DNA from: Candidatus Peregrinibacteria bacterium
GTDB taxonomy: Bacteria; Patescibacteriota; Gracilibacteria; UBA1369; 2-02-FULL-48-14
Direction of reading: 5' to 3'
Assembly (NCBI GenBank): GCA_018658105.1
Contig: JABHVW010000006.1
Location: 94,244 to 158,243 of the forward strand
DNA: 64,000 bases
Within the stretch, counting starts at the first letter, position 1; every line of letters begins with the position of its first letter. The notes under the pieces were generated by a model that did no database searches, was not told where the DNA came from, and worked only from the letters and a program-made list of their open reading frames with translations. The position numbers and the translations under genes were made by a program. Shown here in pieces: positions 1,861 through 8,826 of the stretch.

Positions 1861-2628
1861 ATGAATACTGACATCAAATATTTTCTTAGCCAACTAGGGC
1901 TAAGCGAAAAAGAAGTTGAGCTCTACATATGCTCACTTAAAAGTGGCATGCAAACTGCCAGCACTCTTGCGAAAAAAACTGGAATTGCTAGATCGACAGT
2001 AAATTTTATATTTACTCAGCTCATTCAGAAGGGTTTTGCGAAAAAAGAGAATCGAGAAAATACTAGTTATTTTTCTGTAATTCAACCTGAATCTTTGGAA
2101 TATATTTTATTACAAAAAAAAGCACAGGCGAATAAACAACTAAGTGAATTCCAAAATATTCTTCCTGTTTTGAGCGCACTTCAAAATGAGAATGCCTTGT
2201 TACCAAAAGTTACATATTACGAAGGTCTGGATTCTCTATGTAGAGTAATTGATAACTGTTGCACTGTGGATGAAACTGTTTACTTCATAACAAGCCATAA
2301 TAATATGCACCCTGCGATTCGGGAGTATATTGAAAATATTTATATCCCACAATCAAGGAAGCATAAAAATAAGAATAAAATGATCGTATCTGAGGGGTCA
2401 CAAATTAAAAAATATCTCGATAAGGCAAAAGGTGTATATGATGAAGTGATTTTAGTAGATCCAAAGGACAATCCATTTTCAATTATGGTTGCTATTCATG
2501 GTAACTCAGTCGACTTCATTTCTTACGATGAAAATGATATGTCTGGTGTTTCAATTCAAAACCAACTTATTGCAGATCATATGAAGACAGTGTTTGATCT
2601 ACTAAAGGCTCATTTTGATAGAGCGTAG
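1861..2628 (+). CDS. TrmB-family transcriptional regulator
   Basis: N-terminal winged HTH (LSEKEVELYICSLKSGMQTASTLAKKTGIARSTVNFIFTQLIQKG). Confidence 0.75.
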   Translation: MNTDIKYFLSQLGLSEKEVELYICSLKSGMQTASTLAKKTGIARSTVNFIFTQLIQKGFAKKENRENTSYFSVIQPESLEYILLQKKAQANKQLSEFQNILPVLSALQNENALLPKVTYYEGLDSLCRVIDNCCTVDETVYFITSHNNMHPAIREYIENIYIPQSRKHKNKNKMIVSEGSQIKKYLDKAKGVYDEVILVDPKDNPFSIMVAIHGNSVDFISYDENDMSGVSIQNQLIADHMKTVFDLLKAHFDRA

Positions 2629-4021
2629 GATATCCGTTATCTATAGTTATTGGGAATGAAAATTCCGTCATTGAGTCAGGGCTGAAATGAATGCCGATGA
2701 CTTCCCCATTTGAATCTTGGCCGGGGGAAATAAAGTCGCCCAATGAGTAGTAAATTAGAGCTTCGTTGTAAGTTTCATTTTCTGGGATTTCTTGAAGGCC
2801 ATGCCCAATGAGAATATCGACACCTGAATCTATAAATTTGTGTGCAGTTTTTTGAGGGTTTGAATTTCCGGTGAAAGTGAAATGTAAGCTGATGAAATCT
2901 TGTGCTCCAATTATTTTTGATATTTCTTGTAAGGCTGTGATTTCGTCATTGAAGCTGCAGAATGCAATGCTCATGTTGTTTTGAGTTTTGGTTTCGCAGC
3001 CTGGCTCTGGATTGAAAACCAAGAAGTCTGTGCCAGTGAGAAAGCGATCTTCTATGCCCTGTATGTCTCGTAAATATTCACTGTAGGATTCTCCCCAGTT
3101 CCAGTCGTCAATAATTTGTAAATTCTCTTCATCGGGGATTGCACCGAAATATTGTACTGTAATTGATTTTTGAGGATTAATCTTGCCGGGGCTAAAAGAG
3201 AAATATTGGTGACTGGTTGTAATATATTCTTCCACAGTTAAATATTGCGCTAGGTTTGTGTGATCGTGCCTTGCGGCGTGCATGGAGTTTCGGGCCTGCA
3301 TGAGTTTTAGCAAAAGGTAAAGTGAAGATGGCGAATCGACTTCGAGATCATAAATGTTTTCGAAATCGAAATTTTGTATAGTTGCGTGAGAGGCTAGATC
3401 GTGGAAATCTGCTGCCTCCCAGGGTATGTAATGTGAAAAATCAACACTGGCCAAAACTAGAGAGTTGGCTGGCAAATTTTCATTTAGCCATTCTGCAAAA
3501 CTATCGAGTTCATCTTGAGGCATTTCCCATTGCAGAAGTACTGGTACGATTTTTGCTTTGGGCCATGCGTTTTTGATAAATGGAGCATGCGTGAAGATTG
3601 CATGTTCTTGAACAAAGGATTCGTTTCTTTCTGTCGCTTGTTTATCTGCGAGGATTTTTGATATGAATTCCTGGTTTAGTTCGACTGGCTCCGATGTCGT
3701 ATTGAAAATGCAATTTGTACATGTTTGGATATTTTCTTTTCCGCTTTCGTAATGATTTGGGCCGACAAGAAAAATCGTAGAGTAATCATTTTGAGCGGCT
3801 AAACTTTTGTAGAATCCGGCAATTTCAAAAGCCGCCACCATGTGGTGAGGCAGAACCGCTCCCTGTGTTTCATTTGGGACATTATACTTTTTTGCATTAT
3901 TAAAAATGTTGTTCCACATTTTTGTGTCGCCAGGGTACAAATAGCTTACTTCGGTATCTGTAGGAATGCATGCTGACAGGAATAATGTCAGCATGCATAT
4001 TGAAATTAATAATTTCTTCAT
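2567..4021 (-). CDS. lipoprotein, MEMO1-like (AmmeMemoRadiSam B) N-terminal part plus CapA-like C-terminal part
   Basis: Lipobox LSAC; GAVLPHHMVAAFEIAGFYKS...FLVGPNHYESG (MEMO-like); GVDILIGHGLQEIPENETYNEALIYYSLGDFI (CapA-like). Confidence 0.65.
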   Translation of the reverse strand: MKKLLISICMLTLFLSACIPTDTEVSYLYPGDTKMWNNIFNNAKKYNVPNETQGAVLPHHMVAAFEIAGFYKSLAAQNDYSTIFLVGPNHYESGKENIQTCTNCIFNTTSEPVELNQEFISKILADKQATERNESFVQEHAIFTHAPFIKNAWPKAKIVPVLLQWEMPQDELDSFAEWLNENLPANSLVLASVDFSHYIPWEAADFHDLASHATIQNFDFENIYDLEVDSPSSLYLLLKLMQARNSMHAARHDHTNLAQYLTVEEYITTSHQYFSFSPGKINPQKSITVQYFGAIPDEENLQIIDDWNWGESYSEYLRDIQGIEDRFLTGTDFLVFNPEPGCETKTQNNMSIAFCSFNDEITALQEISKIIGAQDFISLHFTFTGNSNPQKTAHKFIDSGVDILIGHGLQEIPENETYNEALIYYSLGDFISPGQDSNGEVIGIHFSPDSMTEFSFPITIDNGYPTLYQNEPLVDQTLSSYDLQ

Positions 4022-5862: not shown

Positions 5863-6570
5863 ATGGGCATGCAGTCAAGTTGGCTTGAAGTCTTCATCAT
5901 AGTAAGATTGGAGGCGCACATCCTTCACTCTTTAAAATACATAGCTATGGACGGATATAACACTTGTAAGCAACATGTAATTGTAGGCAGCTCGGCTTTG
6001 ACATTGGTGGTAATTTTCGGGCTTCTGCTCGAAACGCCTTGGCCAGCTTCATTTGCTAGGGTTTCATTTCTCCTTCTCTTTTTAACATTATTCATCGGAC
6101 CATTCATGAGGATGAAAAAGCCTGGTCGCGCCTCTTCCCCTTTGGCGACTCCGTGGACATGGCGTGGTGAACTGGGCATTTGGTTTGCCTTAACAGGTTT
6201 AATGCACTTTGTGCTGCTCGTTCTGGATAGACCCTTTTCAAGCTTCATTGAAATTGGTGGCGGAGGCTATGGTCTGGCAAATTTACTTGGACTGATTGCT
6301 TTGTTCTGGGCTCTGATCCTAGCTGCTACCTCATGTAGCAAGGCAATTAAGTATTTAGGCATGGAATCGTGGAAATGGATTCAAAGCCTCAGTTATGTGA
6401 TTTTCTACCTTGTCACTGGGCACTACGTGTACTTTCAATTCTTCTCCACTTATGGAGATAATCCAGGGCCAGATTGGTTTGGCTACACTGCTGTGATCAT
6501 GGCGATTAGTATCGTGCTGATGCAGCTTAGTGCTTTTGTCCTTGCTGTTGTGAAGTATAGGAGGGGGTAG
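5863..6570 (+). CDS. multi-TM protein, ferric reductase-like transmembrane domain (MsrQ/FRD-like)
   Basis: Hydrophobic segments with spaced His (GLMHFVLL, VTGHYVYFQF); start uncertain (ATG at 5947 possible). Confidence 0.6.
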   Translation: MGMQSSWLEVFIIVRLEAHILHSLKYIAMDGYNTCKQHVIVGSSALTLVVIFGLLLETPWPASFARVSFLLLFLTLFIGPFMRMKKPGRASSPLATPWTWRGELGIWFALTGLMHFVLLVLDRPFSSFIEIGGGGYGLANLLGLIALFWALILAATSCSKAIKYLGMESWKWIQSLSYVIFYLVTGHYVYFQFFSTYGDNPGPDWFGYTAVIMAISIVLMQLSAFVLAVVKYRRG

Positions 6571-7435
6571 CTTTATATCTACCTAATTCAAAGGCTGCCT
6601 CACCGGTCTTTGCATTGGGCGTGGGAAAGACTAGCACTAGATCATGATCGAAATATATGGATTTGCCATGATCTAATCCAATTATTTCATCAGACTTTAT
6701 AAAGTCAAAATTGGAATATTGATTGCTAAAACAAAACTGATCAGATTTAACAAGGTATTTATCAAACACCTCAATTTTTTTCTGATTCTTATTCGGTTTA
6801 TTGCCTTTGCCTTGTGGATATTGCAAAAATCTATCAATTTGTTTAGTGACAAGGGGTTTCAAATGGATGTCCTGATGGCAGCCAGCTTCAAGTGTTGCAC
6901 CAATACCGCCCAATCTATCGACATAATTATCAAAGGCATATTCCCTTTCTGGCGTTTGAAAGTTAGGCGACATAAATACCACAAAAGGGATATCCAAATG
7001 ATTGCAAAGATCCAAATGTTGCTTGCTGAATTTCGTGTAGAGAAAAGGCTTTGCCGGTGAGGAGGTGGAATGTAGATCTATAAAATAATCCACCCCCTCG
7101 TAGTATGGTAGAAGCTCTTTCACACGTTTTTGTTCGTGAGATAATTTTGATGCATCCATCCCTTCAATATGCTCAATAGATTTTTTTGTAAGCAGGCGAT
7201 TCATATCTTCATCTATATATCGCCCCCCTTGTTCATACGCCTTTCTGTTGGCAAAAATAAGGTCAAGCCTACCTGTAATATCGCAAGGCATTAAAGAAGT
7301 CATAAGTTCACTCAGTATGGTGAAGCCAAGTGTCTCATCTCCATGAGTAATGGCTTGAAGCATTCGATGATAGCCATGCTTCTCACCTTGTAATGAAAAT
7401 ACGTCAGGACCAATTTGTGTGAAAGCAGTATTCAT
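6527..7435 (-). CDS. succinylglutamate desuccinylase/aspartoacylase family (M14-like) zinc hydrolase
   Basis: ITHGDETLGF, FANRKAYEQGGRYIDEDMNRL, YFIDLHSTSSP motifs. Confidence 0.8.
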   Translation of the reverse strand: MNTAFTQIGPDVFSLQGEKHGYHRMLQAITHGDETLGFTILSELMTSLMPCDITGRLDLIFANRKAYEQGGRYIDEDMNRLLTKKSIEHIEGMDASKLSHEQKRVKELLPYYEGVDYFIDLHSTSSPAKPFLYTKFSKQHLDLCNHLDIPFVVFMSPNFQTPEREYAFDNYVDRLGGIGATLEAGCHQDIHLKPLVTKQIDRFLQYPQGKGNKPNKNQKKIEVFDKYLVKSDQFCFSNQYSNFDFIKSDEIIGLDHGKSIYFDHDLVLVFPTPNAKTGEAAFELGRYKATPSYTSQQQGQKH

Positions 7436-8649
7436 ACTTTTAGATTAAGCTTTTTACAGGCTTGTGCAAATATGTTATTTGCATGAGCAACATCTCCATT
7501 CGGAACAACAGCAGTCAAATCGATTCCGCCCCACTGAATTATTCCTGGATTAGTTATTAGAACAAAGCCAGAACTTGATGGTTCAAGTAGTGAGCCAAGT
7601 GTTTTTTGAACTTCGGAAAAGCTCATGCCAAGTTTAGTGCCATTCATGTGTTTATGCATGAATGCAAACGGTGCTCCAGATAGGAATGGTAGCTTCGAAA
7701 CTGCGCTCCAAATATAATAGACTGCACCTTTCCTCACATTTAAATCACTCCAAAATAACTGTCCATCTGGAGATTCTATTACATCACAACACATCTGGCC
7801 TAAACCGCCAAGTGCTGCAAGTTCTGAGGTTAAGATGTTTGTATTTGTCTCTAAAGATTTTTCAGATCCGTTTAAAGGTACATAGGGGTAGCTTACACCT
7901 TTGTAAGAAGTATTCTCGGCAATTTGGTTGAAAAAACCTATTGGCACAACTAGTCCAGAATCTGTAATTTCCCAATGTGTAGAAACTTCTTGATCAATCT
8001 CGATCAATGGCTCCACATAAAACTCTCCATCAGGGAGTGAATCTAAATCTTGTGGGGCATGTAGCCTTTTCATTGCTCCATGTGCAATCCCTCCAGTCCC
8101 ATATACACCTTTAGCTAAAAATCCGGGAAGTGTTGGAATATGCGAAAGCCCACCTAAAGCTGCTTCTAAATCACCCCATGTAGTGTCTGATGTTAATTCT
8201 ACAAAAGGCAAACCAGGAATTCCTATTTTTTTACATAGCTTTTTGAAATTCAGTTTATGCCCATAGATTTCACCAAATTCTGCATTAAAATATGGGCTTA
8301 CACCTAAAATATCTACAAGCTGCTTTTCTGGAGGGAATACGGTAAATACCTCTAGGCTTACTTGGGATGGATCTTTAATTAGTTCAGCAATTGCAGATTG
8401 TACAGATTGCTTTGCTGCGATTAGATCAGATAAACATTTGCCAGGTTCGTAAGGACCTGCATTTATCAAGTGAGGAAGGGTGAATCCAAGGCCCTCCCAA
8501 TAAGCAAGATATTCAGGGTCGAATGGATTCGTAGTCACTACAAGATCACCTTCACCTGCATTGCAAAGGCCTGCCCTTTGATCGTATGCTTGCTCAGATG
8601 GATCTTCTAGAAACATGGGGTTACTTTGACTATCAATAATTAATTTCAT
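7432..8649 (-). CDS. ATP-grasp-type ligase (pre-ATP-grasp-like)
   Basis: AKGVYGTGGIAHG loop, EFYVEPLIEIDQEVSTHW, QLFWSDLNVRKG; ATGA overlap with downstream hydrolase. Confidence 0.65.
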   Translation of the reverse strand: MKLIIDSQSNPMFLEDPSEQAYDQRAGLCNAGEGDLVVTTNPFDPEYLAYWEGLGFTLPHLINAGPYEPGKCLSDLIAAKQSVQSAIAELIKDPSQVSLEVFTVFPPEKQLVDILGVSPYFNAEFGEIYGHKLNFKKLCKKIGIPGLPFVELTSDTTWGDLEAALGGLSHIPTLPGFLAKGVYGTGGIAHGAMKRLHAPQDLDSLPDGEFYVEPLIEIDQEVSTHWEITDSGLVVPIGFFNQIAENTSYKGVSYPYVPLNGSEKSLETNTNILTSELAALGGLGQMCCDVIESPDGQLFWSDLNVRKGAVYYIWSAVSKLPFLSGAPFAFMHKHMNGTKLGMSFSEVQKTLGSLLEPSSSGFVLITNPGIIQWGGIDLTAVVPNGDVAHANNIFAQACKKLNLKV

Positions 8650-8665: not shown

Positions 8666-8690
8666 AAAAAAACCGCCTTCAGAGACGGTA
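8666..8690 (-). terminator. intrinsic terminator/attenuator 5' of the ATP-grasp gene
   Basis: RNA ACCGUCU-CUGA-AGGCGGU followed by U7; G-U wobble only in the minus-strand RNA. Confidence 0.8.
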
Positions 8691-8715
8691 TAAAAGTTTT
8701 GAATCGAATATATAT

Positions 8716-8790
8716 TTACGCACAAAGGCGCCGCCTCTTAAATGTTAAGCGGCTGCGGCGAACTAGGAAATTATTGATTAAGATTTTCAT
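8716..8790 (-). CDS. Arg-rich leader peptide MKILINNFLVRRSRLTFKRRRLCA
   Basis: 24-codon ORF directly after a consensus promoter; six Arg codons; sits in attenuator architecture. Confidence 0.65.
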   Translation of the reverse strand: MKILINNFLVRRSRLTFKRRRLCA

Positions 8791-8797
8791 ATCTCAT

Positions 8798-8826
8798 ATC
8801 ATACGCCTGTCTTAAGGGTATGTCAA
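8798..8826 (-). promoter_or_regulatory. promoter TTGACA-17-TATGAT for leader peptide/ATP-grasp operon
   Basis: -35 rc at 8821-8826, -10 rc at 8798-8803, 17-nt spacer. Confidence 0.8.

Follow-up and report, generated by a model that had tools for sequence, protein, structure and literature searches.

A probable arginine-codon transcription attenuator with a leaderless leader peptide ahead of an ATP-grasp–AspA-like operon in Patescibacteria, with counterparts at argG and argF

The window (the whole stretch of DNA analysed, 64,000 nucleotides in length) carries on its minus strand an ATP-grasp amide/peptide-ligase-like gene of 405 aa (7432..8649, ATG at 8649) followed by an AstE/AspA-like deacylase gene of 302 aa (6527..7435), the two sharing 4 nt where the ATP-grasp gene ends and the deacylase gene begins. 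An AlphaFold model of the ATP-grasp protein (pLDDT 85) came closest to BesA and other ATP-grasp peptide ligases; the chemistry of both operon enzymes is inferred. Pattern searches of genome and viral collections returned no close orthologues of the ATP-grasp gene, and no relatives of it were found in phage and plasmid records. A wide search with an ATP-grasp profile of 12 diverse rows strayed into the ATP-grasp superfamily at large, with matches in 107 genomes, and only its stronger matches were kept. The gene for argininosuccinate synthase (argG) was not found in the window's genome or in the searched members of its family, and because this genome is without argG, the operon probably serves to acquire or recycle arginine or one of its precursors, the need for arginine being itself an inference. 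Elsewhere in the window (2567-4021, minus strand), a single ORF matches both a Memo-like (AmmeMemoSam_B) domain and the capsule-synthesis domain PGA_cap.

Ahead of the ATP-grasp gene, also on the minus strand, a first-pass annotation made from the sequence alone had placed a promoter, a leader ORF with Arg codons and an intrinsic terminator, and each of these was found where it had been put. The -35 hexamer TTGACA (8821..8826) and the -10 hexamer TATGAT (8798..8803) are separated by 17 nt and were recognized both by sequence and by a promoter model trained on this genome. The -10 hexamer ends 7 nt 5' of the leader ATG, and the predicted transcript start, an inferred site at about 8791-8792, would make the mRNA leaderless; no Shine-Dalgarno sequence precedes the leader ATG. 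The short ORF downstream of the promoter, MKILINNFLVRRSRLTFKRRRLCA, comprises 24 codons and a TAA (8716..8790, ATG at 8790), and its translation is inferred. The control codons CGC CGC AGC CGC (R11 R12 S13 R14, 8749..8760) lie within segment 1 (delimited as CGCCGCAGCCGC, 8749..8760, or as GCCGCAGCCGCTTAA, 8745..8759). Segment 2 (TTAAGAGGCGGC, 8730..8741), the pairing part of which can be written as AGAGGCGG, is able to bind either segment 1 or segment 3 (CCGTCTCT, 8681..8688), the latter doubling as antiterminator partner and as the terminator's 5' arm. Three more Arg codons in a row, AGG CGG CGC (R19-R21, 8728..8736), fall within segment 2. The terminator itself, formed by segments 3 and 4, spans 8666..8689 and consists of ACCGTCT-CTGA-AGGCGGT (8689-8672) with seven T (8672-8666), has a predicted energy of -8.6 kcal/mol, and is separated from the ATP-grasp ATG by 22 nt.

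The genome of origin (1.12 Mb in 15 contigs, 97% complete) belongs to a class that mixes genomes using the ordinary code with genomes reading TGA as Gly, from which we infer a place on the Gracilibacteria side of Patescibacteria. The promoter model, obtained by expectation maximization (EM) on 131 operon-first genes of this genome, converged to TTG-[AC]-C-17-TATAAT, with the -10 box mostly 6-9 or 21-26 nt 5' of the ATG; judging from these distances, leaderless mRNAs appear to be common here. Under this model the leader promoter is among the best 3% of the 131 and beats every shuffle, while no promoter was found by it in the 70 nt 5' of the ATP-grasp gene, where the score falls below the shuffle median. 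With no promoter in those 70 nt, the ATP-grasp and AspA-like genes need transcription that passes the 8689-8672 terminator. Shine-Dalgarno sites precede only 1 of the 53 window genes, despite an intact CCTCC in the 3' region of the 16S rRNA. Operon-internal genes show a preference for an A-rich TAA(C) about 10-12 nt 5' of the ATG. A tRNA-Arg at L077:12131-12207 has the anticodon GCG where bacteria usually have ACG, and it would read the CGC/CGT control codons.

Terminators as strong as that of the leader are rare in this genome: 16.4 kb of intergenic DNA held 5, where chance would give 0.1. Strong terminators here mostly come after stop codons, typically 10-40 nt past them. Apart from one rRNA-adjacent site, the leader terminator is the only one, in the 415 kb of stretches used as background, that has a protein gene next and no same-strand gene upstream. 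Its distance of 27 nt from the leader stop codon fits the typical spacing, as would be expected if the element were an independent small gene or sRNA with its own promoter and terminator, the ATP-grasp gene being transcribed separately. We regard this as very unlikely, since no promoter for the ATP-grasp gene lies behind the terminator, and since it accounts neither for the 2:3 pairing, which exceeds that of shuffles, nor for the specific recurrence of Arg-tandem leaders before argG, argF and ATP-grasp genes with peptides that are unconserved beyond the Arg run (both described below).

The first-pass annotation had also proposed that the 1:2, 2:3 and 3:4 helices of the leader exclude one another, and that the 2:3 helix has 8 pairs including one G-U. 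The latter count was exact, and the former proposal was borne out by folding and by 20,000 dinucleotide-shuffled versions of the leader. Of these, 3.5e-4 matched its 2:3 pairing (p about 4e-4), and 5e-5 matched 1:2 and 2:3 jointly. The Arg cluster was reached in 1.3% of the shuffles and is by itself weaker evidence than the pairings. The stalling codons had been placed in segment 1; this holds for RRSR, but RRR sits in segment 2, where its codons are partly a by-product of pairing with segment 1, and a ribosome stalled at R19-R21 would mask segment 2. The leader has only a modest single-strand z-score (-1.7), but where folds are mutually exclusive this measure is of no use as a test.

Folding with segment 1 masked had been suggested as a check. 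At equilibrium the terminator is still favoured (0.88), but the E. coli trp leader, used as the control for folding and given the same treatment, also favours its terminator (0.99). That the 2:3 helix is not the equilibrium winner thus counts against an attenuator, yet neither is it the winner in trp. Because masking segment 1 does not displace the terminator, the switch has to operate kinetically. When folding was instead performed by ribosome position, 2:3 dominated before segment 4 is made if the A site was at codons 10-14 (P about 0.96), and a ribosome past these codons, or at the stop, eliminated segment 2 pairing.

A similar layout was found at two ATP-grasp homologues from distant families (28-30% and 16-19% identity), each of which has a leader with tandem Arg codons, stems that compete, and a terminator ending 24-26 nt short of the gene. 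The loss of the leader peptide or of the alternative stems at orthologous loci had been named beforehand as something that would refute the reading, and both of these homologues, in genomes G367 and G591, retain leader, stems and terminator, with sequences unrelated to the window leader and an equal layout. In G367, the leader MKIEIIVTKIFRREVSIKKPVFVSIYKDKYRR (FRR) precedes the ATP-grasp gene, with a perfect 2:3 helix of 8 bp and a 13-bp terminator 24 nt 5' of the ATG. In G591, which reads TGA as Gly, TTGACA-16-TATAAT is followed by the leader MFGTNISVIRRRRLFTN with RRRR (AGA x4) and by a terminator 26 nt 5' of the ATP-grasp gene, and the AspA-like second gene is kept. Weighing against the reading, no more than 3 of the roughly 15 clear ATP-grasp relatives have the leader; it is absent in G155, G017 and G623 and, in G641, upstream of the ATP-grasp gene. 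For AspA-like homologues taken alone, preceding terminators were missing or attributable to the upstream gene.

The G623 genome, another that reads TGA as Gly, contains at L152:345-6000 an operon of M20 deacylase, ATP-grasp, AspA-like, argG and argH genes, and this links the ATP-grasp–AspA pair to arginine without recourse to a leader. This operon is a candidate for an unusual arginine route that uses an amino-acid ligase and two deacylases. The arginine tie of the ATP-grasp–AspA operon rests solely on this neighbourhood and on leader homology. A further ligase-deacylase pair was seen in G641 (L154:2738-4936, minus strand), where the ATP-grasp homologue is accompanied by an N-formylglutamate amidohydrolase (FGase) that replaces AspA.

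A scan of 615 gene starts yielded 18 terminators lying close 5' of a gene with no upstream gene, and a tandem-Arg leader was present in five of the 18: at the three ATP-grasp genes already described, at the G029 ornithine carbamoyltransferase gene (argF) and at the G641 argG gene (leader MKRQENIFGFRRRPLALS). The G029 argF leader is MNTQISQIIVNRRRSTDTSRKLR (RRR), and an AstE/AspA-like deacylase gene lies directly 3' of argF (L144:3139-5048), an arrangement that suggests an arginine pathway through acylated intermediates.

We then surveyed argG genes from 164 genomes of the class, examined where the sequence allowed (n=41); this survey was begun after one argG case (L159) had already been noticed. 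An RR leader together with a terminator was present at 22 of the 41 argG genes versus 20 of 363 controls, and five of those 20 positive controls were themselves ATP-grasp or argF genes. For leaders alone, RR was found at 22/41 argG genes versus 36/358 controls (p=2.6e-10), a chance RR ORF thus lying upstream of roughly 10% of control genes, and RRR at 13/41 versus 4/358 (p=3.7e-11). The lowest p among the other 19 amino acids was about 0.04, leaving Arg as the sole strong enrichment. These p-values are optimistic, given that the genomes are related. Positives came from 8 of 15 families, a count that excludes the match at L158 (RR at codon 30), which is probably spurious. With recurrence at ATP-grasp homologues, at argF and at about half of the argG genes, the attenuator reading that had been offered for the window leader alone gains support.

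The Arg run of these leaders begins between codons 7 and 15 (median 11) and draws on all six Arg codons, with peptides that are otherwise not conserved; the use of all six codons indicates that the amino acid itself is what is kept. Every clear case has an intrinsic terminator, T tract included, separating the leader from the gene. The 2:3 pairing beat shuffles at p<0.05 in 10 of 19 scorable loci (combined 3e-12). Our automatic terminator finder gave no clean stem at several loci and the wrong stem at L159 and at the G635 argF, and the 2:3 values of these are uninformative; where the arms were set by hand (the three ATP-grasp loci and the G029 argF), 2:3 exceeded shuffles in 4 of 4 (p 0.0004-0.019). 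Covariation could not be assessed, the leaders being too diverged for alignment across families. Two genes of unknown family near argG, at L178 (minus strand, 2111-2576) and L171 (minus strand, 2186-2534), also have a leader (MNYIFPAFAARRAARTIGA and MNTSTFVPAPRRPLN, respectively) and a terminator, and are possible further members of the group.

These features bear on two other explanations. T-boxes control arginine genes in other bacteria (cited in PMC1262725), and the leader could accordingly be imagined as a ligand- or tRNA-binding RNA (a riboswitch or T-box) or a protein-controlled antiterminator in which the Arg codons are incidental. An Rfam search of the window leader and eight leader loci returned only tRNAs, however, with no match to the T-box model or to any other family at the leaders, and no RNA domain is conserved, only the coding of an Arg run by all six codons; we find this explanation highly improbable. 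The RSR of the window leader also corresponds to the +X+ macrolide arrest motif, and stalling leaders of this kind are known from resistance genes (discussion of uORFC-6-1 in PMC8632094). That the leader senses an antibiotic is nonetheless scarcely credible, as the genes controlled encode arginine enzymes and amino-acid ligases, none of them a resistance gene, and most relatives have plain RR, RRR or RRRR runs.

The window leader is recognisably homologous, as judged by sequence, to argG leaders of the same order. It has the 20-nt core TAGTTCGCCGCAGCCGCTTA (8746..8765, minus strand) in identical form in common with the argG leaders of two genomes, G018 and G029 (L164, L166), and aligns with them around it. 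The simplest story, although an inference, is that of one ancestral arginine attenuator retained before a different arginine gene. The device is best read as a member of a class-wide arginine attenuator regulon comprising argG, argF and ATP-grasp–AspA. We consider it likely that this is an undescribed arginine regulon of Patescibacteria, in which leaderless leaders without Shine-Dalgarno sequences and with Arg codons control argG, argF and an arginine-obtaining ATP-grasp–AspA operon, so that tiny cells with few regulators sense arginine by attenuation, and that the device was kept in the window's lineage despite the loss of argG. The leaderless leader, the membership in an arginine regulon and the arginine tie of the operon family were all missed by the first-pass annotation.

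From sequence elements, statistics and recurrence, without expression data, we conclude that the window element is very probably an Arg-codon, trp-type, ribosome-mediated transcription attenuator that senses charged arginyl-tRNA through a leaderless leader peptide and belongs to the arginine attenuator regulon; the start of transcription, leader translation, stalling and readthrough are inferred. RNA polymerase would initiate at about 8791, with a ribosome trailing on the leader ORF. When Arg-tRNA is ample, the ribosome would reach the stop and cover segment 2, so that the 3:4 terminator forms and transcription terminates near 8666. Under a shortage of Arg-tRNA, the ribosome would stall at codons 11-14 and cover segment 1, allowing 2:3 to pair before segment 4 is made, upon which the terminator would fail and the ATP-grasp and AspA-like genes would be transcribed. 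Without translation of the leader, 1:2 would form and transcription would halt. Leaderless leader peptides are unusual among known attenuators, which counts against this proposal. Leader translation might instead govern ATP-grasp initiation or mRNA stability and not termination, as known Arg-codon leaders elsewhere act in this way or by Rho (PMC6386406, PMC13009471). To this we give little credence, since the T-tract terminator is present at every clear case with its 5' arm as the target of the alternative pairing, and a genome without Shine-Dalgarno use has no such site to hide.

If the attenuator is real and used across the class, it would be, as far as we have found, the first amino-acid attenuator described in the candidate phyla radiation, and it would show that attenuation works from leaderless mRNAs and imply coupled transcription and translation in these cells. 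It would also open a way to the function of an unknown ligase-deacylase operon, which should matter for arginine, and a prediction for many uncultured genomes, namely that an Arg-tandem leader has an arginine gene behind it.

The best-known cases of classical leader-peptide attenuation concern Trp, His, Leu, Thr, Phe and Ile/Val, and for arginine, control otherwise falls to ArgR or T-boxes (PMC1262725 for the latter). In the literature searched, which left out most subscription papers, the Arg-codon leaders that we found (speF and rbfL) have other modes of action, and an Arg attenuator turned up neither for argG nor in Patescibacteria nor, as the first-pass annotation had supposed, for an operon of the present kind. 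The orf34 leader of Salmonella speF is a short ORF with tandem Arg codons 12-13 at which ribosome pausing senses arginine and the RNA refolds (PMC6386406). The window leader would share these traits, whereas orf34 acts through Rho, release of a ribosome-binding site and RNase G on an ornithine decarboxylase gene, without an intrinsic terminator switch (PMC6386406). In Staphylococcus aureus rbfL, Arg codons of a leader ORF likewise sense arginine restriction, but the control is translational, the paused ribosome blocking the rbf RBS (PMC13009471). Arginine T-boxes also place arginine genes under RNA-level control by uncharged tRNA, but there the tRNA is bound directly by the RNA with no leader peptide (cited in PMC1262725). 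The Pseudomonas aeruginosa carAB leader would resemble ours in combining a leader peptide with attenuation at an arginine/pyrimidine operon; the attenuation is attributed there to pyrimidines, and both gene and phylum are different (discussed in PMC4997734). The closest likeness in design is to the trp, his, leu, thr and phe attenuators of enterobacteria, in which the leader ORF carries, within segment 1, tandem codons for the amino acid that regulates the operon, the helices 1:2, 2:3 and 3:4 are alternatives, an intrinsic terminator precedes the structural genes and the switch is kinetic. Unlike these, the putative attenuator described here would respond to arginine, has a leaderless leader and a very short 1:2 helix, occurs in Patescibacteria in a genome without Shine-Dalgarno use, and belongs to a group whose targets are argG, argF and an uncharacterised ligase-deacylase operon.
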